NCBI GenBank assembly: GCA_022510565.1
Contig: JAFLTE010000005.1
Coordinates: 1 to 64,000, forward strand
DNA from: Lachnospiraceae bacterium
Lineage (GTDB): Bacteria > Bacillota > Clostridia > Lachnospirales > Lachnospiraceae
Length of the DNA: 64,000 bases
Reading direction: 5' to 3'
In this document: piece by piece, positions 20,229-34,803 of the stretch
Layout of the letters: every line of letters begins with the position of its first letter
How positions within the stretch are numbered: the first letter of the stretch is position 1
Notes under the pieces: generated by a model
The model's database searches: none
What the model was told of the DNA's origin: nothing
What the model saw: only the letters and a program-made list of their open reading frames with translations
Translations under genes and position numbers: made by a program

Positions 20229-20984
20229 ATGAGTGTGAATCTCATATTGACGAAATCTCTTGCCGCAGTATATTGTATTTCCATGTTGGCAGCAACCGGG
20301 CAGGAACCGGATTATCAACTATATGATTTAGCGTGTTCCATGCCGATTGACGAACTCCATGTTGAGGAGTGTACTTTTATGGATATCAATTCCGACGGAA
20401 TGCCGGAAGCGTACATAGGAGCGGCGGGCGGTTGGCAATATGGTGTATATTATTACATGGATGGCGAAGTGCGCAGCGTGGAGGATATGACACCGTGGAC
20501 GTGGAGCAGCAAATTATTGTATACGCCTGACGGAAAGTTGATTATGTACACCTATCCCCATACCACCGGGACGGAAGGAAACCTTAATTACAGAGTATGG
20601 CAGTGGGGCGAAGATGGGTATTCGTTGGCGGAGGATTTGTGGCGTATTCCCACGGAGTGGGGATGGAACGGTGAGGGAGACGAGAATGATTACAATAATT
20701 ATGGTCCGCTCGAATTTGATTATATCTCATCGGACGTTGCCATAGATCCCTTTCCTGTTAATGAGTTTTCGTACGCCGATTTGCTGATTACGCAGGAGGA
20801 ATTTGAGCGAAGAATTGATGGCTTTGATAAGGCGGAAGATGTATATGACCCTGATACCTATTTAAGTTGGAGTTATGAATGGTGGAATCAGTATGGTAAG
20901 TATGGAGAGTATGCAGAAGAGTATGATAGAGCTTATGCGATTATCAGACAGGAGATTTTGGAAGAATTACTGAATTGGAAATAG
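20229..20984 (+). CDS. Secreted acidic, aromatic-rich protein of unknown function
   Basis: Not recognised as a named family. The 251-residue protein starts with a short signal-like hydrophobic stretch (LAAVYCISMLAATG, residues 11-24). It contains DINSDGMPEAYIG (about 56-68), resembling the calcium-binding loop of FG-GAP/VCBS-type repeats. The remainder is unusually rich in Trp, Tyr, Asp and Glu, with NEFSYADLLITQEEFERRI near 180-198. An extracytoplasmic role is likely from the signal and composition. It starts 12 bases after leuS with GGAGG, so it may be read through from the leuS promoter. It ends at a convergent hairpin (20994-21029). Confidence 0.65.
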   Translation: MSVNLILTKSLAAVYCISMLAATGQEPDYQLYDLACSMPIDELHVEECTFMDINSDGMPEAYIGAAGGWQYGVYYYMDGEVRSVEDMTPWTWSSKLLYTPDGKLIMYTYPHTTGTEGNLNYRVWQWGEDGYSLAEDLWRIPTEWGWNGEGDENDYNNYGPLEFDYISSDVAIDPFPVNEFSYADLLITQEEFERRIDGFDKAEDVYDPDTYLSWSYEWWNQYGKYGEYAEEYDRAYAIIRQEILEELLNWK

Positions 20985-20993
20985 CAACGATAG

Positions 20994-21029
20994 AAGAACG
21001 TCAGGGACTTTGAAGCTCCTGACGTTCTT
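20994..21029. terminator. Hairpin between convergent genes
   Basis: AAGAACGTCAGG (20994-21005) pairs perfectly over 12 bases with CCTGACGTTCTT (21018-21029), loop of 12. It lies between the stop codons of the genes at 20984 and 21031. T-rich sequence follows on the plus strand (GCTATTTCTT) without a clean run. Confidence 0.65.
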
Positions 21030-21030
21030 G

Positions 21031-21306
21031 CTATTTCTTGCGCTGCTTCATAAGTTTCTCCAGTTTGTCGATTTTATCCAGTTCCTCCGGCGTAGAGTAC
21101 TTGCGGATTGTGGAGGTGATGGTTTCTACTTCTTCGCTGCTAAAAGTTATATGACTGTCCATGCCTTTTTTGGCGACAGACATAAGGAAAGGCAGCATCT
21201 GCTCCTTGGTGAGAGACTGACTCTCAAAGACAAGAGACTGCAGAAAGTCAAGTTTCGCGCTGTCAATATGTGCGACGGCGGGATCGTCCATCCAGTTATT
21301 TGTCAT
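21031..21306 (-). CDS. Small charged protein with YSTPEE motif
   Basis: Not recognised. The 91-residue protein is helical and charged, with no membrane segment. Its C-terminal third (IRKYSTPEELDKIDKLEKLM) shares YSTPEE followed by a Leu-spaced helix with the protein of the next gene upstream (21321-21890), suggesting that the two are related or interact. The start ATG at 21306 has CGGAGG upstream on its strand. The gap to the upstream gene is 14 bases, so the two form one operon. Function unknown; a sporulation link rests only on a candidate sigma-E promoter upstream. Confidence 0.75.
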   Translation of the reverse strand: MTNNWMDDPAVAHIDSAKLDFLQSLVFESQSLTKEQMLPFLMSVAKKGMDSHITFSSEEVETITSTIRKYSTPEELDKIDKLEKLMKQRKK

Positions 21307-21320
21307 AATTTATACCTCCG

Positions 21321-21890
21321 TTATAAAATCTGGCTTTCGGGGTCTGAACTGTCGTTCAAATCCGATTGCCGAAACATCTCATACATTGCTTTCTGTTCGG
21401 GAGTGAGCATATTCATCATCATGTCCATCATAGAGAACGGACCGGTCTGCGCGGACTCCGCACCTTCCATATCGGAGAATGCAGAGTCGCTCCCGAAGGG
21501 CGGAGCCGCAGACAGGTCGGGGAAAAGTTCCTGCAGGGCAGACATAGTCTGTGTCATTTCCTGCATTGTTTCCATCGTTTGAAGCATATTCTGAAACTGT
21601 TCCAACTGTCTGATTTCCTCCGGAGTGGAGTAGAGAGACAGTTGGCGGCACAGCGAACGCAGATCGGGTTTTTCATCGGAAGGGATGCTGCAGCCGCTTA
21701 TTTGGAACGGGTGTCTTCGAACATATTTCATCGTGTATTGCAGCTCCATATATTTAATATAGACCGCCAAATGCTTTTGCATGGAAGGTTCTATGTAAGG
21801 CAGGAGAACCTTGAATTTTTGAATCTCGTTTGTGGTGTATAAGGCATCAAATGCCATAACATTTGCTGCTTCTTCATTTTTAGCTGCCAT
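21321..21890 (-). CDS. Met/Gln-rich helical protein with YSTPEE motif
   Basis: Not recognised. The 189-residue protein is taken from the ATG at 21890, with GGAAAGG nine bases upstream; a TTG 24 bases further out lacks a site. The N-terminal two thirds are helical. The centre has RQLSLYSTPEEIRQLEQFQN followed by a Met-rich heptad-like stretch, and the tail contains MMDMMMNMLTPEQKAMYEMF. There is no signal peptide. It shares YSTPEE with its downstream partner. The promoter candidate at 21926-21954 resembles sigma-E sites. Confidence 0.7.
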   Translation of the reverse strand: MAAKNEEAANVMAFDALYTTNEIQKFKVLLPYIEPSMQKHLAVYIKYMELQYTMKYVRRHPFQISGCSIPSDEKPDLRSLCRQLSLYSTPEEIRQLEQFQNMLQTMETMQEMTQTMSALQELFPDLSAAPPFGSDSAFSDMEGAESAQTGPFSMMDMMMNMLTPEQKAMYEMFRQSDLNDSSDPESQIL

Positions 21891-21925
21891 AAGGTATGCC
21901 TTTCCGATGCCCAAAGTATCTTTAC

Positions 21926-21954
21926 AGTATATGTCATATGTGAGAAAAATAGGC
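21926..21954 (-). promoter_or_regulatory. Candidate sigma-E-type promoter
   Basis: On the minus strand: GCCTATT (21948-21954), 14 bases, CATATACT (21926-21933), close to the sigma-E pattern (kmATATT, 14 bases, CATACAnT). It lies 36 bases before the start at 21890. Pattern match only. Confidence 0.3.
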
Positions 21955-21974
21955 TCTAAAAGAGCTAGAGCCTA
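21946..21974 (-). terminator. Terminator of the Cys-rich small gene
   Basis: TAGGCTCTA (21950-21958) pairs with TAGAGCCTA (21966-21974), loop of seven. On the minus strand it is followed by TTTTTCTC, so it terminates the gene at 22033-22263. Confidence 0.8.
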
Positions 21975-22032
21975 CTTTCCCAGATGTGAAAGACCAGATG
22001 TGTAAAGGGGATTATTTACGTAATAACCGGAT

Positions 22033-22263
22033 TTAGTTGCCCCAGCAGCTGGAAAGAATCAATAACCAAACCAATGTATTGCAGCAGCTGCTGCCATTGC
22101 CGTCATTATTGAACAGACCAAAACCGCTTCTGCCGCTGCCGCATCCGTCATCATCGTTTCCGAAGCAGGATAAAAGCAGGAGAATCCAAAGCCAGGAGTT
22201 GTTTCCGAAGATACCTCTGCTGTTATTGTTGCATCCGCAATTAGTAGCTGTTAAGTCGCTCAT
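22033..22263 (-). CDS. Cys/Gly/Asn-rich small protein, spore coat-like
   Basis: A 76-residue protein beginning MSDLTATNCGCNNNSRG, with two hydrophobic patches (SWLWILLLLSCF and NTLVWLLILSSCW) each next to Gly/Asn/Asp/Cys-rich runs. The halves look like an internal duplication ending in CFGN and CWGN. Lachnospiraceae genomes carry short proteins of this make-up, often labelled chorion class high-cysteine proteins; a structural role in the spore coat is a guess. The start has TTGGAGG upstream. It is monocistronic: a candidate sigma-K promoter (22294-22320) precedes it and a terminator follows. Confidence 0.72.
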   Translation of the reverse strand: MSDLTATNCGCNNNSRGIFGNNSWLWILLLLSCFGNDDDGCGSGRSGFGLFNNDGNGSSCCNTLVWLLILSSCWGN

Positions 22264-22293
22264 CTATTTAGCCTCCAAATGTTGTTTATGGTT

Positions 22294-22320
22294 TATCTTA
22301 TGAGTGAGGAGTGAATTGGT
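22294..22320 (-). promoter_or_regulatory. Candidate sigma-K-type promoter
   Basis: On the minus strand: AC (22319-22320), 16 bases, CATAAGATA (22294-22302), matching the AC-N16-CATAnnnTA pattern. It lies 31 bases before the start of the Cys-rich gene. The motif is short, so chance is possible. Confidence 0.35.
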
Positions 22321-22356
22321 GACAGAAATAATTGACTTCATAATGTTTTTATTTTG

Positions 22357-22376
22357 CATGTGAAAATTTTTACATG
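22357..22376. promoter_or_regulatory. 20-base imperfect palindrome between divergent genes
   Basis: CATGTGAAAA (22357-22366) is followed directly by TTTTTACATG (22367-22376). The halves are complementary except for one G/T position. It lies in the AT-rich 235-base gap before the sortase gene and is a plausible operator. The nearby TTGCAT (22406) and TAAAAT may be the sortase promoter, but spacing choices are ambiguous. Confidence 0.4.
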
Positions 22377-22498
22377 AAAAATGTATGAATTTCTGACAAA
22401 ACACTTGCATTAATTTCAAGATATAGTAAAATTATACTATATGTTAATGAGTCATAGTGGGTGCACTAGGCTTATATTTGAGAAAAGGAGCGGTCCCC

Positions 22499-23716
22499 AT
22501 GGCGGGATTTGAAGTTGCCGGCAGAAGATTCCGGACAGAGGCAGATTATAAGGCTGCACTGCGGGATCAGGCGAAGATAGATAAGATTAAGTCACAAGTC
22601 AATATGGAACAGCCGGGAGAGGTTATTACTCTGTACACAGACATGCAGGCCGGCGCGTATCGTTTCGAGACTGCCGTAGGCAACGATTTTGATGATGAGA
22701 TTTACGAGCTGGCGCAGGAGTTTAAGCGTCAGGGATATGATAAAGACAGTATACTGCCGACAGGCAGGAAGGCCGCTAAGAAGAAAGCGGCAGTCAAGGG
22801 AGCCGGGCGCAGCAAGAAGGGCTCGGCAGGAGGCAAAGGTAATGAAGATGGTGACGGCGAACGCGCCTCAGTTTCCTTGGACGCATATGACAAGAAAATG
22901 CGGAAGGTCATTCTCGATGAGTTAAAGAAGCGTGAGAAACGCCGCAAGCTGATGATTGTTCTGTGTTCCGCCGTGGCGGCGGCAAGCTTCATATATTTTG
23001 GTGTCTACTTTTATTTCGCCGACAGGACTGAGGCGGATTATGCGAATCTGGCAAGCCTGAAAGGAAACGCTTCACTGGCGGTAGGCACAACTCCCACCGT
23101 GACCATTCATTATACGGACGAGGAGGACATAGAGTTGGAGGTTCTCGAAGAGTACCAAACGCTCTATAATAAGAACAAAAGTCTAATCGGATGGCTCAAA
23201 ATTGACGATACTAATATAGATTATCCTGTGATGCAGACGGTCAATAATGAGTATTATCTCGACCATAATTACAGTCAGGAATATGACAAAAACGGCAGCA
23301 TATTTTTAGATAAAGACTGCGATGTGGTACATAGAAACACAAATTTGATTATATATGGACATCACATGAAATCGGGCAAGATGTTTGGGAATCTGAACAA
23401 GTACAGCAGCGAGGATTACTGTAAGAAACATTCGACCATTCAGTTTGATACCATATATGAAAAGGGAACTTACGAAGTCATGTATGTATTTCGTTCGAGA
23501 ATCTACAACGAGGACGAAATCGTATTTAAATATTATCAATTTCTGGATGCGGCATCTGAGAAAGAGTTTATCTCCAATATGCAGGAGATGGCGGCGCTGG
23601 CGTTATACGACACGGGCGTTACAGCAAGCTACGGAGATGAACTTCTGACACTGTCCACCTGCGACAGTTCGGAGACGGACGGGCGATTTGTGGTAGTTGC
23701 CAAGAGAATTCAGTAA
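22499..23716 (+). CDS. Class B sortase with N-terminal cytosolic extension
   Basis: A membrane transpeptidase of 405 residues from the ATG at 22499 (AAAAGGAG upstream; an in-frame GTG at 22457 has no site). Residues 1-150 are cytosolic, with a small domain (EVAGRRFRTEADYKAAL, AYRFETAVGNDFDDEIYEL) and a Lys/Ala/Gly-rich linker. One membrane helix spans about 151-173. The sortase domain follows, with His288/289 (IIYGHHMKSGKMFG), catalytic Cys388 (LTLSTCDSS) and Arg396. WLKIDDTNIDYPVMQ is typical of class B. Ordinary SrtB has about 240 residues, so the extension is notable. The two downstream wall proteins are the likely substrates: Thr-Gly cleavage and joining to peptidoglycan. Confidence 0.92.
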   Translation: MAGFEVAGRRFRTEADYKAALRDQAKIDKIKSQVNMEQPGEVITLYTDMQAGAYRFETAVGNDFDDEIYELAQEFKRQGYDKDSILPTGRKAAKKKAAVKGAGRSKKGSAGGKGNEDGDGERASVSLDAYDKKMRKVILDELKKREKRRKLMIVLCSAVAAASFIYFGVYFYFADRTEADYANLASLKGNASLAVGTTPTVTIHYTDEEDIELEVLEEYQTLYNKNKSLIGWLKIDDTNIDYPVMQTVNNEYYLDHNYSQEYDKNGSIFLDKDCDVVHRNTNLIIYGHHMKSGKMFGNLNKYSSEDYCKKHSTIQFDTIYEKGTYEVMYVFRSRIYNEDEIVFKYYQFLDAASEKEFISNMQEMAALALYDTGVTASYGDELLTLSTCDSSETDGRFVVVAKRIQ

Positions 23717-23779
23717 ATAAATTACGACAGCATGATTTGAAAGCTAAATTATACAGGGGAAGTAAGAAGGAGAAAACAA

Positions 23780-26700
23780 ATGGCTAAGAAAACACCGGTT
23801 AAGAAATCTAAGAGAGGATTAAAGAGAAGCGTTAGGCGCAGTCTGTCGGCGGTTCTTATGATTACGGCGATTGGTGTGGCGGCGATTCCGGTACCGGAGA
23901 ACTATGCTGCTCCGGATGGTATACAGACATATGCTGCGGCGGCGGATACCCATACGGTTTACAGCTATGATGAATTAAAGACAGGAAAATCGGATGCAGA
24001 CGGTTCGAACATATCTGACAGTTCAATCAGCGGACTGTTTGCGAAAGATACTGCCGGTCGCGCCTGGTTGGAATATTATGATAGCAGTAAAGACGATAAC
24101 TCTCAGACGGGCGCATCAAATACGGCGCTTACTATCGAAAAATCACTTAAGATTTTTGATAACGGAATGGAAGACGAACTTACATGGGAGTATAAATATT
24201 ACGAGGCGAACAGCAATGTCGTGTTGTGTCAATATAACGACCGCTATCCGAGAGGCTCGGTTAATTTGGCACCCGCTCCCAATATAGAATATTTTAAAAT
24301 TCTGACAAGTGATTTTAATGATTATTTTGAAAAGGGCGGCACTACAGTAAAAGCGGGTTCAATTAATGTAAGAATGACGAAGAACCCTATGAATACTGTA
24401 AGTTATACTTACGCTGATTATCTGGATAGTACAGATATGCAATTGCGGGGCGATTTGGAATTCTTCAATAACTATGCGAAGGAGTTGTATGATACCAAAA
24501 CTACCTCTTATAGGAAGTATCAGGAAGATAAGGCTGCTTATGATAGGGCTAAAGCAGAGTGGGAAAGGAATAATCCCGATAGCGGCGATTATCCTGATCC
24601 GGAACCGGATAAGCCATCGGATTTAACAAATGTTACGATGACTCAGGCAATCGGCGATAATACAGCGAACAGAATAAAGTTCTTTTGCGATTATTGCAGC
24701 ACATTGCAGAGCTATGGTGACGGATATACGTTAAGAGCTGTAAGAGATACTACAGGTGATACCAAGGGTGACGCAGTATATGCGTATGTGGCATATGGCG
24801 GTACGCCCACGCAACCGGGAATCAAAAACGATGGAGAAAACAACACCGGATATATGGTGACACGACAGGGTAACTACGTCACCGCGATTGGCAAACATGC
24901 TTTTATGGATGTCGGAAACGTGGATAATATTGTGCTGCCTACATTGGTTCACTATATCGGTGATGAAGCGTTCTATCATTGTAATAGTGTAACTGAAATT
25001 GATATTGCCAATGTAGCAATGATTGGTAACGGTGCATTTCAATCGTGCGGTAACTTGGCTAAGATTTCCATGGGAAGCGGTGTGACGGCGATTGGAGTGG
25101 AATGTTTTGAAGGCTGTGGCAAACTGACAAGTATTACCTTTTCTTCTAATACTGCCAAGATTGGTGCCGGTGCGTTTGCCAACTGCAGCAGTTTGGCGGA
25201 GCTCAACTTAAACAATATTATTGAAACGTGTGAAATCGGAGCAGCAGCTTTTTATAATTGCTCCTCGTTGTCTACAGTCAGCATGATAGAGTCAGGTGTG
25301 ACAAAGATTGGTGATTCCGCCTTTGCGTCTGTGGCAGGCGACAGGTTGACGGAGTTCACGTTTCCGTCTGCGATAGCAGACAGTCAGGATGCCCTCGGCA
25401 ACAGATTGTTTAGCGGACGTGCGGCATTGACAACCGTGGTGTTCCCCAACCAGTATGGTCGTACGAAAGCGATTACGATACCGGAGAGCATGTTCCACGG
25501 CTGTTCAAGACTTCAATATGTTGAATTTCCTACGGCCAAAGGCTCTGACCCGACGGCTAATGCCAATTTGAAATATACGACAGGCGGACAGACCACAACC
25601 AATGAGTTGTTTGCGGATGTAACAAATAAAGATTTTTATATAAGCGGTCCTAAAGAGAAAACCAATGGTGATGTGGCAGCACCCAGAGAGTCTACTTGGA
25701 GTGCAGTAACCAGAGCTTACGATGAGCCGGGATTCGTACCGTACCTTTACTATGAGAACGGTGTGGAATATTACGAAATCTGCAGCGGCGACTATCTGGA
25801 GTGTATCAGGAAAAATCCGGACGGAACAGGTACTTTGACTTCCTGTACACTTAAGCCGGGAGCAACAGCGCCCGCGGGAGGCACATTGATTATTCCCGAT
25901 AAGGTGGGTGATACAGAGGTTGTGGCTATTGATACCGGTTGTTTCTCCGACACGGATTTGACATCAAGTGTGAAGAAGCTGGTCATCAACGACAACATTA
26001 AGGAGATAGCGCCTTCTACATTCGAGAATACGAACGGAAAGTGGAATCGGTTACAGGAAGCCACTATCGGAAGTGCAGTGGAGACGCTTGGAGCCAATGC
26101 ATTCTTGAACTGCACCAGCTTGACCGATATTACATTTAAGACACCGGTTGATAATGACTATACCAAACTAAAATTTGTGGACAGTGCGCTCAAGACCAAC
26201 GGAAGAACGCTGACGATACACGGAGATATTGAGAAAGGGTATCGGCCGTTCACATATGCTATGGATCCGAATACTTATGCGAAGAGTAAGGAGGAAGGAA
26301 TCAGAGTATGCTACCAGAGCAGATGGGACAGTCCGTCCTCCAAGCATATGACTGTTATGTATGGGGAATCCAGTAATTCGTCACTTGCAGGTAAAGATGG
26401 TTTGGTGACATTGTTGGATTATCCGAGATACAGTGAGCTTGAAGATATGAGTGGCGCTACCGGCGCGGAATTAAGGGCTCATAATGAGGAGCGGGAACAG
26501 CAGTTCTATGAAAGATATGCCGTAGAAACATATGATGATAAGAGAATTGCTTTTGTAAAAGCTTGGCAGAAAGCATCAGATCCGAAAGAAGTATATGAGT
26601 ATGATAAGGTTACAGGAGCAGGAGCGGATGATAATGGGGATCCTTTGTATGGGCCATGGATCAATGAGGAATTCTGCGATAATTGGGTCAATTGGGTAAA

Positions 26701-29452
26701 GAGAGCAGATGAAACAGCTCGGGCAGAAACAAATGGTATATTTGACTGGCTGTTTGAGCCGATTACAGTGTATGCCCTCAGCGATGCGCCGGCACCTTAT
26801 TTTGATACCTATGAATTCAACTTTATGACAAATTATAAAAAGTATAACGGAAATGAGAGTCTGATTCCCACATTTGAAGCAACCGGCGCGGCAATTGATT
26901 ATATGGGATGGAATGATTTTGAGAAAGAGATGATCAGCTCCGTTGAGAACATTGTCGTACCTGCAGGTGTTGAATCTATCGATGTATATGATTACTATAA
27001 TTTAAACAGACAGAGTTTCATGGCATATATATATAACAGGCCGGAATATACCACAACGGGTGGAGACATTAAGAATGTTGTTCCGGGTCTGTTCAGCGGT
27101 AATATGGAAGATTATGAGGAGGACCCTGAGAAGGATCCTGATGATAAGTCCATATATGAAGCACGAGGAGTAAACGGTAATGACAGAATCAGGTCTGTCA
27201 TCATGTCATCGGTTCTTTATCTTCCGGATTATGCCTTTGATAACTGTGAGCGCTTAGAGACAGTTATATTGGGTGATGCGATGCAGCAGGTGGGTGCGTT
27301 GCCGTTTAGAGATTGTATCAGATTGGTCAATCTGACGGGCAATGCGAAGTATCCTGCAGAGAACGGTATCTTGTATGAAGTGCAGGCCGGAGAAGCGGAA
27401 GCATATAAGATTATTGAATGTCTTCTGGCAAGAGGTGCCGGAAGTCCATTATCGGATATGGTAGTCTCCGATGTATTCGATTCGAAGATTCCGTTTGTGT
27501 CAACCATCGCGAAGGATGCTTTTGCAGATTGTGACAACATAAATACAATCAATTTGTATCCCGCGACTTTATTGACGGAGATTCTGGATGGAACCTTCAG
27601 AGATTGTGACAATTTGGCATTGGTTACTTTGCCTGCGTCCGTAAATGATATTCATGACAATGCCTTTGCCGATATATGTAAAAAATCTACATTAAAACCT
27701 AGATGTCAGATTTACATTTATGGTAGTGAAGTTTCTATTTCGGATAATGCTTTTGGTAAGGATGCAGATTTAGCGCCTGATGATATACGTACGCATGCTA
27801 AAGAGCGTATTAAGATATGGGCATATGACAATACCGCAGCAGCCAGATATGCAAAGTATTATTCTAAGTGTGATTCTAAGTGTGATGAAGGGAAGGAACA
27901 CGACCTCATTTTGTTTGACCCGATTCCGGCTTCCGAGAGTGCATTTTCCGTAATATTTATGGATTATGACGGCACGCAAATTGGAAATACGCAGTTTGTT
28001 ATCAATGATAGAGCGACAAAACCTGACACGACGGAGTTGAAGAAGCCTGACCACAGACCGGGTTACAGATTTACCGGATGGCTCGGAACGAATGGTCAGG
28101 ATGTAGATGAGAGGATTACAGACAACTGTATTTTCTTCGCACAGTATGAGTCTGACGGTTCGATGGTCAACGGTGCATATGTGGTAGAATTCCGTGACGG
28201 TATTGACGGACGTCAGTTAAACAATATGTATGCGAACCGTGAAGACGGTAAGTATTATATTGCACCGGGAACAAGCTTTATGTCTAACGGTTGGGAGGTT
28301 CCCCCGTATTATGCGCATGATGGTTATGCGTTCCTGCAGTGGAGTGACAACTGGACTGAGAATACAATCATCAATTCCAACATGACGATTATTGCACTGT
28401 ATTCAGCGGATCCCAACGGCAGTGGTAGCGGTTCGGGCGGTGTAGTCGGAGGTTCCAGCGGAACCACGCAGACGACGAGCAATACGTCCAACCGGAACAG
28501 CTCTAATTCCAGTTCCTCGACCTCGTCCAGCTCTACCAGTACGAGTTCGACAACTTCCGGTTCGGACTCTGCGACAGGTAAGTATACGGTTACCGTAGAG
28601 AACGGAAGCGGAAGCGGAAGCTATGACGTAGGATCAACGGTTATTATTGCTGCGAATACGCCGCCGGCAGGTATGGTTTTCAAGAATTGGACCACGGAAT
28701 CTAACGGTGTGGCGCTTGCAAGTGTCAGCATGACGGCAACTACCTTTACGATGCCTGCTAACAATGTTACAGTGACGGCTAATTATGTTGCGGCGACACC
28801 CACTGCAGCCAATACCGGAAGCACCGGAAGTGTGGGTAATACGGGAAATACCGGAAATACAGGCAATAACGGCAATGGAAGCACGCGTGTGGACATTACG
28901 AAGCCGGGTATCTCCAATAAGGACCTTGCGACGGCCAATACGAACGGCTCGACGGATAACTTTATTGTAAAGATTACCGAGACCGATGAGGCTACCAGAG
29001 CGGTGGCGGAAGCTTTGACGAATAAATACGGCAGCTTGGATAATATCCTGTACTATGCGATGGATATCAGTCTGTATGATTCCACAGGTACGGTGAAGAT
29101 TTCGGATACTTCAGGTCTTTCCGTGGATATTACGATTCCGATTCCGGATGCGCTTGTTGCGTACGGCGGTAACAATAAGGCAGGAGCTGTAATTAACGGC
29201 AATCAGCTTGAGAATTTGAATGAGAACTTTACAACGATTAACGGTGTACCTTGTATTAGATTTACGGCTACGCACTTCTCGCCGTATACGATCTATGTAG
29301 ATACGGGCAATCTGACGGAAGGTATGCTCGACGTAACGCCGAAGACCGGCGACCCGATTCATCCGAAGTGGTTCTTGTCGATTGGTCTGGCTTGCTTATC
29401 CGTGATTCTGTTTATGAAGAAGGATAGGGCAGTTAAGGTAAAAACAGCATAA
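23780..29452 (+). CDS. Giant BspA-type leucine-rich-repeat wall protein
   Basis: A 1890-residue surface protein. It has a Lys/Arg-rich signal peptide (about 1-45). BspA-type LRR_5 repeats lie near 365-560, 690-800 and 1080-1390, with patterns such as IGDEAFYHCNSVTEIDI and IGNGAFQSCGNLAKISM. InlB/Flg_new-type repeats (GYRFTGWLG, HDGYAFLQWSD) lie near 1400-1540, then a Ser/Thr linker (about 1550-1595), a bacterial repeat domain (NGSGSGSYDVGSTVII) and a Gly/Asn/Thr repeat linker. A final stalk domain is shared with the next protein. The C-terminus is a sorting signal: TPKTGDPIHPKWF, hydrophobic helix, basic tail. BspA proteins often mediate adhesion; the ligand is unknown. A GGAG site precedes the start, 63 bases after the sortase gene. 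Confidence 0.9.
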   Translation: MAKKTPVKKSKRGLKRSVRRSLSAVLMITAIGVAAIPVPENYAAPDGIQTYAAAADTHTVYSYDELKTGKSDADGSNISDSSISGLFAKDTAGRAWLEYYDSSKDDNSQTGASNTALTIEKSLKIFDNGMEDELTWEYKYYEANSNVVLCQYNDRYPRGSVNLAPAPNIEYFKILTSDFNDYFEKGGTTVKAGSINVRMTKNPMNTVSYTYADYLDSTDMQLRGDLEFFNNYAKELYDTKTTSYRKYQEDKAAYDRAKAEWERNNPDSGDYPDPEPDKPSDLTNVTMTQAIGDNTANRIKFFCDYCSTLQSYGDGYTLRAVRDTTGDTKGDAVYAYVAYGGTPTQPGIKNDGENNTGYMVTRQGNYVTAIGKHAFMDVGNVDNIVLPTLVHYIGDEAFYHCNSVTEIDIANVAMIGNGAFQSCGNLAKISMGSGVTAIGVECFEGCGKLTSITFSSNTAKIGAGAFANCSSLAELNLNNIIETCEIGAAAFYNCSSLSTVSMIESGVTKIGDSAFASVAGDRLTEFTFPSAIADSQDALGNRLFSGRAALTTVVFPNQYGRTKAITIPESMFHGCSRLQYVEFPTAKGSDPTANANLKYTTGGQTTTNELFADVTNKDFYISGPKEKTNGDVAAPRESTWSAVTRAYDEPGFVPYLYYENGVEYYEICSGDYLECIRKNPDGTGTLTSCTLKPGATAPAGGTLIIPDKVGDTEVVAIDTGCFSDTDLTSSVKKLVINDNIKEIAPSTFENTNGKWNRLQEATIGSAVETLGANAFLNCTSLTDITFKTPVDNDYTKLKFVDSALKTNGRTLTIHGDIEKGYRPFTYAMDPNTYAKSKEEGIRVCYQSRWDSPSSKHMTVMYGESSNSSLAGKDGLVTLLDYPRYSELEDMSGATGAELRAHNEEREQQFYERYAVETYDDKRIAFVKAWQKASDPKEVYEYDKVTGAGADDNGDPLYGPWINEEFCDNWVNWVKRADETARAETNGIFDWLFEPITVYALSDAPAPYFDTYEFNFMTNYKKYNGNESLIPTFEATGAAIDYMGWNDFEKEMISSVENIVVPAGVESIDVYDYYNLNRQSFMAYIYNRPEYTTTGGDIKNVVPGLFSGNMEDYEEDPEKDPDDKSIYEARGVNGNDRIRSVIMSSVLYLPDYAFDNCERLETVILGDAMQQVGALPFRDCIRLVNLTGNAKYPAENGILYEVQAGEAEAYKIIECLLARGAGSPLSDMVVSDVFDSKIPFVSTIAKDAFADCDNINTINLYPATLLTEILDGTFRDCDNLALVTLPASVNDIHDNAFADICKKSTLKPRCQIYIYGSEVSISDNAFGKDADLAPDDIRTHAKERIKIWAYDNTAAARYAKYYSKCDSKCDEGKEHDLILFDPIPASESAFSVIFMDYDGTQIGNTQFVINDRATKPDTTELKKPDHRPGYRFTGWLGTNGQDVDERITDNCIFFAQYESDGSMVNGAYVVEFRDGIDGRQLNNMYANREDGKYYIAPGTSFMSNGWEVPPYYAHDGYAFLQWSDNWTENTIINSNMTIIALYSADPNGSGSGSGGVVGGSSGTTQTTSNTSNRNSSNSSSSTSSSSTSTSSTTSGSDSATGKYTVTVENGSGSGSYDVGSTVIIAANTPPAGMVFKNWTTESNGVALASVSMTATTFTMPANNVTVTANYVAATPTAANTGSTGSVGNTGNTGNTGNNGNGSTRVDITKPGISNKDLATANTNGSTDNFIVKITETDEATRAVAEALTNKYGSLDNILYYAMDISLYDSTGTVKISDTSGLSVDITIPIPDALVAYGGNNKAGAVINGNQLENLNENFTTINGVPCIRFTATHFSPYTIYVDTGNLTEGMLDVTPKTGDPIHPKWFLSIGLACLSVILFMKKDRAVKVKTA
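28480..28570 (+). repeat. Serine/threonine-coding low-complexity stretch
   Basis: A run of Ser, Thr and Asn codons in the LRR protein (about residues 1567-1597) encoding a wall-spanning linker. Codons vary, so it is compositional rather than a perfect tandem repeat. Confidence 0.75.
28806..28880 (+). repeat. Tandem 9-base repeats coding Asn-Thr-Gly
   Basis: Repeated units like AATACCGGA / AATACGGGA / AATACAGGC code for NTG/STG/NNG triplets in the linker just before the stalk domain. Near-identical neighbouring units (GGAAATACCGGAAATAC) could allow slippage, changing linker length between strains without a frameshift. Confidence 0.8.
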
Positions 29453-29461
29453 GGAAAACCT

Positions 29462-32302
29462 ATGAAAAAAACAATCAGAAATCTGATCGGTATACTGCTT
29501 CTTGCGACGGCAGTAGCGGTTACGCAGATCCCTGTATCAGATGTGGAAGCGGTAGATACCTCTTCCGCATCTGACTTTCAGATGGACGGAACTACATTAG
29601 TGAAATACAACGGCACGGCTCAGGACGTGTCTATTTCCAATTATGTCGAAAAGATTGAGTCAGGGGCGTTTGCCGATAATGATTATATTAGGCATGTCAC
29701 CATAGGCGATTACGTGGAAGTAATCGGTTCGGGAGCATTCGCGGGCTGTAAGAACTTAGAGAGTGTTACAATACCGGACAGTGTGAAAACGATTGAGAAT
29801 GCGGCATTTGCCAGATGTCCGTCACTTAGTCAGGTGACGGTGGGAACGGGACTTTCGGAGCTTGGCAACGGTGCATTTGCGGGGGACTACAGTCTGCAGA
29901 ATGTACGCTTTAACAGCAGCAATCCGAAATTTACGTGCGACGAGGGCGCAATCTACAATAAGAACGGTTGGGATACGTTGTATCAGGTTCTGGCGGGTAG
30001 AAAAAACGATACCTATACGATGCCGAGTTCGGTAGAGAAGATTAAACCCTATGCTTTTTGGGGCAATTATAATCTACAAACTGTCAGAATCGGCAGTCAG
30101 GTGAAGGAAATCTCCGCCTATGCCTTTTCCAATTGTAAGAATTTAAAGAATGTGGAGATTTCATATTCTGTTAAAAATATTGATATAAAGGCATTTGAGG
30201 ATTGTGTGAGACTTCGGGAAATTAAGATACCGCTGTCTGTTGGCACGATTCACAGCACGGCCTTTGACGGCTGTACGAAGCTGAATATTAAAGCGGAGCC
30301 GGGTTCGGCGGCTTATAATTTCGCACAGACACTTGTACTTGATGATATTGAGGTATCCGAGTATGAGGAGGCACCGATTCCGTCGAAAACAAGCGTCAGC
30401 GCTAATGATGTTTCCGATGCGGCAGAGGTTCCGCAGATTACCGCTCCGGTGGACTATTATCATGAGGTATCTCATATGAATGCGATGGAGGAAGAGGAAG
30501 ATTCTTCCGTCAAGGGTAAGACTCGTGTGATCGGCAGAGAGGCGTTTGTACTGATTGACAACGCGCAGGCATCAGTCAATGTGGGCAGTACGGGTGAAGT
30601 ACTCGGTGGAAGCACGCCTGAGATCGATATCCCGCAGTATACGGACACGGTACCGGGACTTGCGGGCTCAGATGATGCCAAGGGAGGTTCTTTCCCGAAA
30701 TATACTGTGGTTAATAACTCTGTTATCGCGGCACAGGCATACTATGACGATGATATGATTGCCTATGAGATTCCGGATGGCATTGTGCGGTTGGGTGAGT
30801 TCTCTTTTGCAAGGTCCAATCTCCGTTCCGTCAGGATTCCCGATGGCGTGGAAGAAATCGGTTATGCGGCATTCTATCACTGTGATGAATTGGCAGAAGT
30901 AATTATTCCGGACAGTGTTAAAGAAATCGGTGCGGCGGCGTTTATGCAGACGCCATGGCTTAAGAGTTGGGAGCAGGGCGGCAGCGACTATTTAATTGTG
31001 GGTGACGGCATTCTGCTCGCCTATAAAGGCAGTGACAGTGTGGTTTCCGTCCCGTCGCAGGTGAAGCGGATTGGTGCGGCGGCGTTTAAGGATTGCAGTA
31101 CAATCACGAAGGTGATTATACCGGACAGTGTGGAAATAATCGGTGAGGCGGCTTTCGAGAATTGTAGGAATTTGACGCAGGTAGAAGGCGGAAATTATGT
31201 GCGGGAAATCCGCGACAGAGCTTTTGCGGGTTGTCCGATTGCTACGGTACATATACCGGCATCAGTGGAGAAGATTGGGCTCAGAGCTTTTGACAGCACG
31301 GATTCTAACATGTCGGCGAACAGTGGCGTGATTGTGTTCGGAGGTAACAGTCTTCCGGAGTTGTCTTATGAGACAACTTCTACCAAGGTATATCGCGACA
31401 ATTATCGTGATTTAGCACTTAAGGGCAGTATGGTTGCAGTCATTCCGGAGGGTGTGAATGATTTGACGGGTACGCTCCTTGCTGACGGTAAGGCAGGATT
31501 TAACGGTGTAATCTGTAAGATGACGAAGGCGGCGGATGGCGGAAACGGTACGCTGCAGATTGTCGGAAAGCAGGGAGAGGGCAGTTTCCCCTCTGCAGGT
31601 GAGTCTTGTGTAATTGACGGTGCGACTTACGTGCTGGAAGATGGTGCGGAGAAGGTGCTAGAAACTTCGTCGGCGCGTGAGGAAGTATATCAGGGCATTG
31701 ATGTGCGGGTGAACAGCTATTCGCTGCCGCAGGACGGTATTTCAAGTGCTGTGATGGCAGGTTCGGAAGAAAATTATATTCTGACAATCCAGGACAATGA
31801 GGAAGCGAAAACCCAAATCGGGGATGTCTATAAGAAACTATATGGCAACAGTTTGCCTCATAATCTGTGTGCTTACGAAATAAATCTTACGGATGCTGCT
31901 ACAGGAATACCGATTACGGGGCTTGGTAAACAGAGTGTGGAGGTTACGATTCCGATTCCAAAGGGTGTCGGGGAGGATAATCTTCATGTGGTCTGTCTGG
32001 ATGCGGACGGGCAGCTTGAGGAAGTGGAGAGCAGAATCGTTTCTTCGGACGGATTGGATGCGCTCACATTCTCTGCAAAGCATTTTTCTTACTACGGTAT
32101 CTATAATTACGGCAGCAACAATACGGTGGTATCTGATGTGAAGGATGGGCAGGCGGTGTTTACATCGCTCGGCAATAAAGATGATTCCCCCAACACAGGT
32201 GATAACAGTATCCATCCGAAATGGTTTTTATGTGTTGGACTGGTGTGCAGCGCCATGGCGGTATTTTTCTACCGAGGCGGCAGACGCAAGGCAAAGTATT
32301 AG
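29462..32302 (+). CDS. BspA-type leucine-rich-repeat wall protein
   Basis: A 946-residue surface protein. The signal peptide is about 1-30 (LIGILLLATAVAVTQIPV). Two blocks of about 23-residue LRR_5 repeats lie near 65-285 and 430-620, with units such as SVTIPDSVKTIENAAFARC and KVIIPDSVEIIGEAAFENC. A disordered region (about 295-400) separates them. The stalk domain near 770-890 (ITGLGKQSVEVTIPIPKG, FSAKHFSYYGIY) is homologous to that of the preceding protein. The sorting signal is SPNTGDNSIHPKWF, a hydrophobic helix and a basic tail (RGGRRKAKY). The gene starts nine bases after its larger paralogue and ends at a strong terminator, so sortase and both substrates appear to form one operon. Confidence 0.9.
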   Translation: MKKTIRNLIGILLLATAVAVTQIPVSDVEAVDTSSASDFQMDGTTLVKYNGTAQDVSISNYVEKIESGAFADNDYIRHVTIGDYVEVIGSGAFAGCKNLESVTIPDSVKTIENAAFARCPSLSQVTVGTGLSELGNGAFAGDYSLQNVRFNSSNPKFTCDEGAIYNKNGWDTLYQVLAGRKNDTYTMPSSVEKIKPYAFWGNYNLQTVRIGSQVKEISAYAFSNCKNLKNVEISYSVKNIDIKAFEDCVRLREIKIPLSVGTIHSTAFDGCTKLNIKAEPGSAAYNFAQTLVLDDIEVSEYEEAPIPSKTSVSANDVSDAAEVPQITAPVDYYHEVSHMNAMEEEEDSSVKGKTRVIGREAFVLIDNAQASVNVGSTGEVLGGSTPEIDIPQYTDTVPGLAGSDDAKGGSFPKYTVVNNSVIAAQAYYDDDMIAYEIPDGIVRLGEFSFARSNLRSVRIPDGVEEIGYAAFYHCDELAEVIIPDSVKEIGAAAFMQTPWLKSWEQGGSDYLIVGDGILLAYKGSDSVVSVPSQVKRIGAAAFKDCSTITKVIIPDSVEIIGEAAFENCRNLTQVEGGNYVREIRDRAFAGCPIATVHIPASVEKIGLRAFDSTDSNMSANSGVIVFGGNSLPELSYETTSTKVYRDNYRDLALKGSMVAVIPEGVNDLTGTLLADGKAGFNGVICKMTKAADGGNGTLQIVGKQGEGSFPSAGESCVIDGATYVLEDGAEKVLETSSAREEVYQGIDVRVNSYSLPQDGISSAVMAGSEENYILTIQDNEEAKTQIGDVYKKLYGNSLPHNLCAYEINLTDAATGIPITGLGKQSVEVTIPIPKGVGEDNLHVVCLDADGQLEEVESRIVSSDGLDALTFSAKHFSYYGIYNYGSNNTVVSDVKDGQAVFTSLGNKDDSPNTGDNSIHPKWFLCVGLVCSAMAVFFYRGGRRKAKY

Positions 32303-32340
32303 AAGTTAATTTCGAGTTTGCTCGTTTTGAACGTGACAAG

Positions 32341-32379
32341 ACTCTCGGCATAGAATAATCTATAGCCGAGAGTTTTTTT
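32341..32379 (+). terminator. Terminator of the sortase/LRR operon
   Basis: ACTCTCGGC (32341-32349) pairs with GCCGAGAGT (32365-32373), with a further ATAGA/TCTAT stem above, then seven T's. It separates the wall-protein genes from the protease gene. Confidence 0.92.
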
Positions 32380-32402
32380 GTATAGTATAGGTGGAGATTA
32401 CC

Positions 32403-33323
32403 GTGAACCGTGTGAGAAAACAGGTAGGGTGCAGTGATTATATACAAGAGGATATATTGACGGATGATGTATGTGTGGCGATTCTGGACACGGGAATCGG
32501 ATCACATCCTGACTTTGGTGACCGTATTGCGGCATTTGCTGATTTTGTGGGCGGAAGGCAGGGAAGCTATGACGACAGTGGGCACGGAACTCATGTGGCA
32601 GGCTGTGTAGGCGGAAGCGGCCATATATCTCGTGGGTTGTACAGGGGCATAGCGCCTATGTGTAGATTCTGTGTGGGTAAAGTGTTGGACCATAACGGTG
32701 AAGGAAGTATAGACAGTATGCGGCAGGGTTTAATTTGGGTCATGCAGAATCGTCTCCGATACCGGATTCGGGTGCTCAATATATCACTGGGCATCGGAAG
32801 CGGCGGCGATAAAGAGAGAATGCATGAGCTGATTGAGCTGCTTGATGAAATATGGGAGCAGGGAATTGTGGTAGTGTGTGCCGCCGGAAACAACGGTCCG
32901 AAGGAGGGGACTATCTCACCTTTGGGAACAAGCCGTAAGGTAATTACCGTGGGCTGTCATGAGGGTGGATATTTCGGTTCGCGCAGAGATTTGTGTGAGA
33001 ACTATTCCGGGCGGGGAAGTGACGATATGCTATACAGAAAACCTGACGTGGTGGCACCGGGGACGGATATTATTTCCTGCTGTGTGCAGTGCAGAGGTAA
33101 TGCGAGGAGTGGATACCGCAGCGCTTACACGAGAAAAAGCGGCACTTCCATGGCGACACCCATTGTATCCGGCGCAGCTGCGTTGTATCTGCAGAAATTT
33201 CCATATATGAATAATGAGCAGGTCAAGCGGAAAATGATTTACAGTGCGCGGGATATGGGAGACATATGGAGTAAGCAGGGGTGGGGAATGTTAAATCTGG
33301 AGCAAATGTGCAGCACGGGTTGA
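32403..33323 (+). CDS. S8 family subtilisin-like serine protease, intracellular type
   Basis: A 306-residue subtilase with the full triad: Asp in VAILDTGIGSHPDF (about residue 28), His in GHGTHVAGCVGG (about 62) and Ser in SGTSMATPIVSGAAALYLQ (about 248). The oxyanion Asn lies in VVCAAGNNGP. There is no signal peptide and no long propeptide; the protein starts about 20 residues before the catalytic domain, as in intracellular subtilisins that degrade cytosolic proteins in stationary phase. The GTG at 32403 is chosen because AGGTGGAG sits six bases upstream; the GTG at 32391 lies inside that site. The gene begins just after a strong terminator, so its promoter must be weak or overlapping. Confidence 0.9.
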   Translation: MNRVRKQVGCSDYIQEDILTDDVCVAILDTGIGSHPDFGDRIAAFADFVGGRQGSYDDSGHGTHVAGCVGGSGHISRGLYRGIAPMCRFCVGKVLDHNGEGSIDSMRQGLIWVMQNRLRYRIRVLNISLGIGSGGDKERMHELIELLDEIWEQGIVVVCAAGNNGPKEGTISPLGTSRKVITVGCHEGGYFGSRRDLCENYSGRGSDDMLYRKPDVVAPGTDIISCCVQCRGNARSGYRSAYTRKSGTSMATPIVSGAAALYLQKFPYMNNEQVKRKMIYSARDMGDIWSKQGWGMLNLEQMCSTG

Positions 33324-33348
33324 CATAGTAAGTATGATTGTATACAAT
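33320..33348 (+). promoter_or_regulatory. Promoter of the Re-citrate synthase operon
   Basis: TTGACA (33320-33325), a 17-base spacer, TACAAT (33343-33348). The -35 box overlaps the stop codon of the protease gene, and the -10 box overlaps the palindrome at 33337-33348. Confidence 0.65.
33337..33348. promoter_or_regulatory. Candidate GntR/FCD operator
   Basis: ATTGTATACAAT is a perfect 12-base palindrome covering the -10 box. It has the GT(n)AC core typical of FadR/FCD-type GntR operators. The GntR/FCD regulator encoded 1.5 kb downstream in the same cluster is the obvious candidate repressor. Confidence 0.55.
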
Positions 33349-33384
33349 TATACGTGATGTACAGAAAGAGGGTGCGTAAGTGCT

Positions 33385-34803
33385 ATGCAAGATGACAAAA
33401 CTTTTATGAATCGACCTGTGACCATGAATGATCACAACAATCTTCTGGAAATAGAAGAACATATGTATATTCTGGATGATGTGAAGAAACCGAATGTATT
33501 CAGGAATATGTTTCCTTATTCAGAGATTCCCAAGATTCCTTTTAATGACAGAACAGTGCCTCACAATATGCCTAAGGACATTTGGATTACAGACACTACA
33601 TTTCGTGACGGACAGCAGTCCAGAGCGCCTTACACGACGGAGCAGATTGTCACAATTTATGATTATCTGCATAAACTGGGAGGTCCTAACGGCATGATTC
33701 GCGCCAGCGAGTTTTTCTTATATAGTAAGAAGGACAGGGATGCCGTATATAAGTGTATGGAGCGGGGCTATCAATACCCGGAAGTCACGAGCTGGATCCG
33801 TGCCAGCAAGGAAGACTTTAAGTTGGTTAAGGAGATAGGTATGAAGGAGACGGGCATTCTGGTGAGCTGCTCGGACTATCACATCTTCTTAAAGCTGAAA
33901 ATGACAAGGCGTCAGGCGATGGACCACTACTTAAGTGTTATCCGCGATTGCCTGGAAGAAGGAATCAGTCCCAGATGTCATCTGGAGGATATTACAAGGG
34001 CGGACATTTACGGTTACGTAGTACCGTTTTGTATGGAACTGATGAAGCTGATGGAGGAGTATCAAATTCCGATTAAGGTGCGTGCCTGCGACACGATGGG
34101 GTACGGTGTCAATTATCCGGGTGCGGTTATTCCGAGAAGCGTTCAGGGCATAGTCTACGCTTTACATACTCATGCGGGTGTGCCTCATGCGCTGATTGAG
34201 TGGCACGGACATAACGATTTCTATAAGGCTGTGGCGAATTCTACCACTGCGTGGCTATATGGCTGTTCCGGTATCAATACATCACTGTTTGGTATCGGTG
34301 AGAGAACCGGCAACACACCGCTGGAGGCAATGGTATTCGAGTATGCACAGCTTCGCGGACATTTAAACGGCATGGACACCACGGTGATTACCGAGCTTGC
34401 GGAGTACTATGAGAAAGAGATAGGCTATGAGATTCCTCCGCGGACACCTTTCGTAGGCAAGAATTTCAATGTGACGAGAGCGGGCATTCATGCGGACGGA
34501 CTGTTAAAGAATGAGGAAATCTATAATATCTTTGACACGGACAAGTTCCTAAACAGACCGGTGCTCTGTGCAGTATCCAACACATCGGGTCTGGCGGGAA
34601 TCGCGCATTGGATCAACACATATTTCAGACTGAAGGAAAACGAGCATCTGGACAAGAATTGCGAGCTGGTGCGTGCACTGAAAGTATGGGTGGACGAGGA
34701 GTATGCTTCCGGTCGTGTGACGGTTCTCACGGACGAGGAGTTGCTTGAACAGATTGAGAAAGTTTGCGCGGAGCTTAAGATTTCTATGCCGGGTGAGACG
34801 TAG
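33385..34803 (+). CDS. Probable Re-citrate synthase (isopropylmalate synthase family)
   Basis: A 472-residue DRE-TIM metallolyase-type acyltransferase. The signature DTTFRDGQQSRAPYT (about 70-84) supplies the catalytic Arg and metal-binding Asp. HGHNDFYKAVANSTTAWLYG (about 273-292) holds the metal-binding HxH-type pair, and INTSLFGIGERTGNTPLEA the substrate region. It lacks the long regulatory domain of LeuA. Re-citrate synthase of Clostridium kluyveri belongs to this family and condenses oxaloacetate with acetyl-CoA in anaerobes. The neighbouring NADP isocitrate dehydrogenase supports citrate synthesis here rather than leucine or citramalate. Homocitrate synthase is the main alternative. The family is certain, the substrate is inferred. 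Confidence 0.78.
   Translation: MQDDKTFMNRPVTMNDHNNLLEIEEHMYILDDVKKPNVFRNMFPYSEIPKIPFNDRTVPHNMPKDIWITDTTFRDGQQSRAPYTTEQIVTIYDYLHKLGGPNGMIRASEFFLYSKKDRDAVYKCMERGYQYPEVTSWIRASKEDFKLVKEIGMKETGILVSCSDYHIFLKLKMTRRQAMDHYLSVIRDCLEEGISPRCHLEDITRADIYGYVVPFCMELMKLMEEYQIPIKVRACDTMGYGVNYPGAVIPRSVQGIVYALHTHAGVPHALIEWHGHNDFYKAVANSTTAWLYGCSGINTSLFGIGERTGNTPLEAMVFEYAQLRGHLNGMDTTVITELAEYYEKEIGYEIPPRTPFVGKNFNVTRAGIHADGLLKNEEIYNIFDTDKFLNRPVLCAVSNTSGLAGIAHWINTYFRLKENEHLDKNCELVRALKVWVDEEYASGRVTVLTDEELLEQIEKVCAELKISMPGET

Follow-up and report, generated by a model that had tools for sequence, protein, structure and literature searches.

It is known that a sortase gene may stand beside the few proteins that the enzyme serves, as in the cases of Staphylococcus aureus SrtB and the class C sortases of pilus gene clusters. 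Substrate separation among several sortases in one cell is usually credited to the pentapeptide of the sorting signal. In reports on Clostridioides difficile, the class B enzyme SrtB, its sole sortase, was described to cleave (S/P)PXTG (PMC4155245, PMC5118464), the cut was shown to lie between Thr and Gly (PMC4155245, PMC4591827, PMC5118464), and P4 was named as the determinant (PMC5118464). Here we analysed a stretch of 64,000 nucleotides from a Lachnospiraceae bacterium (GCA_022510565.1, contig JAFLTE010000005.1, positions 1-64,000; hereafter the window), in which a class B sortase gene is followed by genes for two leucine-rich repeat (LRR) proteins of the BspA type, LRR1 and LRR2. Both proteins end in a PxTGD motif followed by the block HPKWF (hereafter the box), and it is well supported that, in the genomes examined, the HPKWF signal goes with one branch of class B sortases.

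As a dedicated class B sortase unit, the locus (hereafter the cassette) belongs to a known kind and is not a new kind of system. Like the loci of S. aureus SrtB and the pilus clusters, it has the sortase gene adjoining its (putative) substrates; it differs from them in having no pilin or haem-uptake proteins but BspA-type LRR proteins with a conserved block behind the expected cleavage site. The likeness to C. difficile SrtB lies in the class, the sole sortase and the S/P-P-x-T-G motif, although Thr-Gly cleavage was demonstrated there, whereas here the resemblance is one of motif. The C. difficile substrates are described as a diverse set, whereas here two LRR substrates are encoded directly behind the sortase gene; the two full signals cited from there, SPSTGKTVSVTSINSSYYTARFVTAKRIL and SPKTGDSTNLMAFIVM..., are without the PKWF box, unlike the cassette signals, and the cassette sortase has an extra N-terminal domain. 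A literature search, which covered few subscription papers, returned no paper with HPKWF and none on a cassette of sortase B and LRR proteins in Lachnospiraceae.

The sortase gene (22499-23716, + strand, 405 amino acid residues) starts with an ATG at 22499, within a longer GTG frame from 22457 in the list of open reading frames (ORFs). Its product scored 161.1 bits against the class B equivalog model TIGR03064 (cut-off, 153.75) and also matched PF04203, and the triad residues H288, C388 (in TLSTC) and R396 were invariant across 14 aligned orthologs. All of the 15 PDB sequence matches were named sortase B or similar, with Bacillus anthracis SrtB nearer than C. difficile SrtB by score, and Foldseek ranks 1-19 were SrtB entries. 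The window genome (3.2 Mb, 89.6% complete) has this enzyme as its single PF04203 match. Relatives were found with the sortase query in 228 of 250 family genomes, so that the presence of a class B sortase nearby means little by itself.

LRR1 (23780-29452, + strand, 1890 residues) and LRR2 (29462-32302, + strand, 946 residues) matched the BspA-type LRR family PF13306 with E values of 4.3e-67 and 5.7e-86, and LRR1 also has an InlB-B-like repeat (PF18998) and a C-terminal HFSPYTIYVDT domain before its sorting signal. By eye, both proteins begin with a signal-peptide-like stretch, and both end in a motif, a hydrophobic stretch and a basic tail (...TPKTGDPIHPKWFLSIGLACLSVILFMKKDRAVKVKTA in LRR1 and ...SPNTGDNSIHPKWFLCVGLVCSAMAVFFYRGGRRKAKY in LRR2). 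Read in frame on the + strand, the motif is TPKTGD in LRR1 (29336-29353) and SPNTGD in LRR2 (32186-32203), and exact HPKWF boxes follow at 29360-29374, where the membrane helix of LRR1 starts and where the box is kept in relatives, and at 32213-32227. Neither protein contains LPXTG; against the LPXTG_anchor model TIGR01167, LRR1 scored 15.6 bits, under the cut-off of 15.9, and LRR2 was unmatched. When this model was run on the window genome at E 10, seven weak matches were obtained, with no PxTG in the tails read; one of them, over the cut-off, was a membrane tail without the motif, and L360 lay within a frame that continues past it.

The DNA pattern for HPKWF was found at 95 places in the window genome with up to two mismatches and with zero mismatches only at the LRR1 and LRR2 sites; we thus rejected chance as the source of HPKWF in the cassette, the only two exact sites being both in its sorting signals. 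Matches encoding PxTGD numbered 21, of which only those in LRR1 and LRR2 were C-terminal sorting signals. The search for such C-termini, which the preliminary description of the locus had proposed, thus returned two in the window genome, together with 30 true HPKWF signals in 27 of the 250 family genomes. No further cassette-type substrate was detected in the 89.6%-complete assembly of the window genome with the signal profile at E 0.1 or with the PxTGD pattern, which other motifs could escape. Other BspA-type LRR frames are present in the genome (G000:C114:63496-64044, G000:C59:66358-66522 and G000:C59:130326-130520), and there is no exact HPKWF site outside the cassette.

In the family sample, the HPKWF DNA pattern occurred at 68 places in 55 of the 250 genomes. 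By our own reading of the frames, which defined the true signals, the remaining 38 places, one of which (L116) had been pooled with an identical frame, were in short or unrelated frames; the reversed pattern, used as a control, gave 28 matches, and about that many chance matches are expected. We then compared the signals with a phylogenetic tree of 76 class B sortases, taken from the best matches and from paralogs within the genomes of the window's family, a part of all sortases in the 250 genomes; it was made by a quick method with support values from the Shimodaira-Hasegawa-like approximate likelihood ratio test (SH-aLRT) and no bootstrap, and some branches outside the cassette clade are long. 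The cassette sortases formed one clade (33 of 76 rows, SH-aLRT 98), with the other 43 rows outside. All 27 genomes with an HPKWF signal hold a clade sortase, 26 of them as rows of the tree and one, G208, as the last 68 residues of a clade-type sortase (72% identity) at the start of a contig, directly before LRR1. The exact signal was thus present in 27 of the 34 genomes in which a clade sortase was seen vs none of the 216 in which none was seen; the latter were set apart by score (best sortase match at most 216 bits), not each by placement on the tree. Fisher's exact test on the uncorrected table (26/33 vs 1/217) gave P = 8e-28, but given the kinship among the genomes and the inheritance of the cassette as one unit, this value shows the pairing and not many independent events.

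The preliminary description had taken the block as a possible mark of substrates dedicated to this enzyme, and this part of its proposal agrees with the result (27/27 with a clade sortase and 0/216 where none was seen); the finding that would have refuted it, HPKWF signals common in genomes without this sortase, did not appear. That the pairing is widespread in the family is well supported. Clade sortases without an exact HPKWF signal accompany variants of the box, in which H is replaced by S/A in G037, by E/D in G112 and by S in G004, and which read PLKWF, SLKWI and TKWL in G079, G233 and G045, respectively. In G137 (81% complete), a 4.5-kb contig carries the clade sortase, and neither this contig nor the rest of the genome yielded a signal. 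The sorting motif also varies among the relatives, with Asn in first position (G037), Gly replaced by Ala and Asp replaced by Glu; at least 90% of 38 signals have Asp at P2'. A signal profile, A1, built largely from the HPKWF signals of cassette genomes, matched 99 of the 250 family genomes at E 0.1, but the matches below 1e-10 were confined to clade genomes and to G056, which had contributed a row to A1. In a class-wide control at E 0.001, the profile matched 5 of 391 genomes: three clade holders with HPKWF signals (the window genome, a congener and G022), one genome (G153) of a 13-row sortase clade described below, and one weak case, a 51-residue frame of no weight.

To describe the conservation of the cassette, we used a second set of named records, the best 80 of at least 591 sortase relatives in GTDB contigs, which include Lachnospiraceae bacterium A4 and Bacterium 1xD8-48, are labelled mostly Lachnospiraceae or Acetatifactor with few others, partly belong to the same species as the family sample and are not on the tree. 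An LRR1 match followed the sortase on the same strand in all 63 loci with at least 9.9 kb downstream, although the repeats of LRR1 and LRR2 cross-match. All 66 complete LRR1-sized frames carry PxT(G/A)D with a box of the form (H/A/Q)PK(W/Y)(F/I), namely HPKWF (60), HPKWI (1), APKWF (2), APKYF (2) and QPKWF (1), or HPKW in 61/66; of the loci without a counted LRR1, 12 end too early, and two were long enough but lacked a frame of this size. Among the 56 LRR2 frames, PxTG stands with a PK box in 22 and alone in nine, and 25, some of them truncated or mis-picked, have no PxTG. The box is therefore fixed in LRR1 and optional in LRR2. The preliminary description, which regarded (S/T)PxTGD and the box as shared by both substrates, holds for the window; elsewhere the box is constant in LRR1 only, and the letters of the motif vary. 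At L097, L102, L148 and up to 25 of the 56 named loci, LRR2 ends without PxTG in a plain membrane helix or none, with the LRR1 signal kept.

Cassette-holding genomes may also have paralogous class B sortases, 20 loci of which were inspected. Eight of these loci, from seven genomes (G022 twice, G196, G236, G156, G233, G206 and G200), have a neighbour with a PKTG signal, which in three loci is upstream of the sortase, and the other 12 showed no such neighbour by the pattern used. PKW was present in none of the eight paralog substrates. In G196, the cassette signal and the paralog signal are both TPxTGD, and the block is what differs; the paralogous sortase of G200 is a long branch in the tree. 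In addition, 13 rows of the tree (G034, G066, G139 and others) are extended class B enzymes that form a second clade, separate from the cassette clade and similar to it in having a related N-terminal domain, a substrate with TPxT(G/A) encoded directly downstream and mostly a box with the spacing seen for HPKWF, but different in the commonest box, (I)DPRYFL, and in substrates of about 380-770 residues. The boxes there are DPRY in G034, G066, G049 and G153, DTRY in G139, DIRY in G103, DARY in G176, DPRL in G083, DARL in G023, DPKF in G150 and NPVF in G056, and G076 and G143 are without such a box. At loci L200, L202, L203, L204, L205 and L206, the second-clade sortase is followed by a substrate that combines TPxTAD with a DPRYF-like box.

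On the observed pairing, its restriction to one sortase clade among the genomes examined and the conservation of the box, we infer the following. The sortase would cleave the Thr-Gly bond of (S/T)PxT-G-D in the C-terminal signal of LRR1, and in this genome also in that of LRR2, and would transfer the LRR protein to peptidoglycan, in the manner of C. difficile SrtB acting on (S/P)PXTG. The PxTGD peptide would enter the active site, while the xPKWF block at the membrane entry may sit beside the aromatic membrane-exit segment of the sortase and keep the substrate in register, which would help to separate substrates where several class B sortases, all with PxTG-bearing substrates, are present in one cell. 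That the cassette is a self-contained wall-anchoring unit with a two-part signal, the box being held by the sortase and helping to keep substrates apart, seems to us somewhat probable, and the two-part reading of the signal is plausible.

There is a possible precedent in the class A sortase of Streptococcus pyogenes, as simulations in one report propose a membrane-helix contact between SrtA and the M protein (LPSTGETANPFF), with a conserved acid at P2' near basic residues behind the sortase helix (PMC12746448). The M-protein signal described there resembles the cassette signal in the P2' acid and in the Pro and aromatic residues that follow at the membrane entry, but it differs in the sortase class, in the LPXTG motif and in the letters of the box (PMC12746448). 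Many clade sortases have R or K shortly after the membrane helix, as judged by eye. The predicted membrane helix of the cassette sortase (about residues 151-169) and the aromatic exit segment behind it, IYFGVYFYFADRT, are encoded at 22949-23038 (+ strand), as judged from hydrophobicity and alignment. The exit motif (G/A/I/S/V)Y(F/L/V/I/Y/W)xx(Y/D) was found in 29 of 33 sequences of the cassette clade, 0 of 13 of the DPRYF clade and 1 of 30 others (counted post hoc), and the 20-residue exit stretch has on average 5.5, 3.5 and 3.3 aromatic residues, respectively.

Several observations weigh against the two-part reading. A looser aromatic pattern at the membrane exit is not specific to the clade (33/33, 8/13 and 15/30), and since the stricter motif was seen before it was counted, the exit segment is a lead only for what the box may touch. 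For the sortase helix, sequence identity among clade members is 30%, compared with 62% for the catalytic part (helix identity is 35% in the 13-row clade and 18% in a third group of 12), and co-conservation of the helix was set aside as proof of helix pairing because this identity is low. The nine of 56 LRR2 frames with PxTG and no box indicate that a PxTG signal next to a clade sortase does not strictly require the box, 25 of the 56 show no PxTG, some of them being truncated or mis-picked, and LRR2 of G241 shows the opposite case, with QPKWY behind a degenerate KGTG motif. In 32 aligned LRR1 C-termini, conservation of the domain upstream of the signal is about equal to that of the box, so that shared descent may suffice to explain the box. 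The paralog substrates have V at P4 in five cases, M in one and T in two (G196 and G200), and thus the pentapeptide alone could separate most of them; furthermore, the window genome has no second sortase found against which to discriminate.

Because LRR2 often loses the box and the cassette is inherited whole, reading of the box by the sortase is unproven, and the idea of a second recognition element, the other part of the preliminary proposal, stays an inference with shared descent as its alternative. According to that alternative, the pairing is real but HPKWF is a membrane-entry element, its aromatic and basic residues at the lipid interface setting the height of the scissile bond, which is kept in LRR1 by descent of the whole C-terminal module from one ancestor and is not read by the sortase. 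The conservation of the LRR1 domain and the tolerance of LRR2 for loss of the box agree with such an element, and the (D)P(R)(Y)(F/L)L box at the same place beside another extended class B clade suggests that an interface element may be general. The M protein likewise has NPFF at the place of the box (PMC12746448). Against it, the box (PKWF, 60-80% per column) stands out in the LRR2 alignment from its surroundings, since the residues just preceding it and the greater part of the following helix have drifted, and the eight substrates beside paralogous class B sortases in cassette genomes manage without this box; we regard this explanation as possible but not the one to be preferred. It is far less credible that the adjacency is incidental and the LRR proteins are membrane-bound or served by another enzyme rather than anchored by the cassette sortase. 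Some relatives do have an LRR2 that ends in a membrane helix without PxTG, but only one sortase was found in the window genome, and the LRR1 match downstream (63/63) and PxT(G/A)D in complete LRR1 (66/66) are constant.

The N-terminal part of the sortase is not about the sorting signal; the preliminary description had proposed to test whether HPKWF signals co-occur with extended sortases. They do not track them, as 7 of the 27 HPKWF genomes (G206, G184, G236, G241, G193, G128 and G080) have sortases of 271-310 residues from the first start codon in which the part preceding the membrane helix, under 60 residues, is too short for the extension, and these carry the same pairing, so that the box is independent of the extension. 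The extension (about residues 1-79, 22499-22735, + strand) is an undescribed cytosolic domain that was predicted with confidence by AlphaFold2 as a beta-hairpin and three helices (pLDDT 94.6 for residues 1-89). Residues 1-159 matched no Pfam or NCBIfam family up to E 10, and comparison with the PDB gave no match (best Foldseek E 0.89, best profile E 0.23).

A related domain begins proteins of about 180-240 residues that have one membrane helix and an outer NYE...WEQELxERE-like stretch; six of them tried against family models reached no family above its cut-off. The window genome has one such stand-alone copy at G000:C71:3808-4377 (locus L353), preceded by genes that resemble rnr and smpB, and the domain also begins a 705-residue protein with many hydrophobic stretches in G463. 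Among 295 genomes of the order, 20 have the domain on a frame of 339-451 residues, and all 16 frames checked were sortases. A stand-alone copy (about 190-240 residues) occurs in 20 of 20 genomes with a sortase-size copy vs 14 of 28 other family genomes (P = 9e-5), and by genus in 9 of 9 vs 6 of 16 (P = 0.003), with kinship ignored in both. Note that a single-sequence search is less sensitive, the sortase copy alone being seen in G041, G037, G100, G147 and others, and the calls of absence depend on the profile. A joint reading would hold that the signal is bipartite, that xPKWF, left in the membrane after cleavage, docks on the aromatic exit segment and provides orthogonality among class B sortases reading similar PxTG, that HPKWF and DPRYF are mutually exclusive address codes, and that the new cytosolic domain couples the sortase to the stand-alone membrane protein with the same domain; taken as a whole, this is speculative and rather unlikely.

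The layout in the preliminary description, with a class B sortase, two BspA-type LRR proteins, gaps of 63 bases between sortase and LRR1 and of 9 bases between LRR1 and LRR2, and a strong terminator, was confirmed by the ORFs, the profiles and RNA folding. The intrinsic terminator (32338-32376, + strand) is a hairpin of -23.1 kcal/mol (z -8.5 vs 200 shuffles) with a run of T, although a simple terminator scanner did not list it. An Rfam scan of 20500-34500 gave nothing at gathering scores. Directly after the terminator is a gene for a subtilase-type S8 peptidase (32391-33323), with a downstream match in 38 of the 63 named-set loci with room, and this peptidase could process surface proteins. 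The cassette is not supported as mobile: upstream, leuS was matched in 43 of the 63 loci with about 10 kb, and downstream the gene at 33385 in 39 of 63. The catalytic part of the sortase, used as query against plasmid records, was not covered to 80% by any of them.

Among the relatives examined, the two-part signal was seen only together with this branch of the enzyme, which points to a way in which a bacterium could assign its surface proteins to particular sortases. The locus and its relatives form a natural set of class B sortases, both orthologs and paralogs, whose putative substrates have similar pentapeptides and differ between enzyme clades in the block beyond the cut. It thus becomes directly testable whether recognition by a sortase extends beyond five residues and whether the half embedded in the membrane is relevant. 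The signal also supplies a search profile for wall proteins of gut Lachnospiraceae that are missed by the LPXTG model, together with a new cytosolic domain on sortases.

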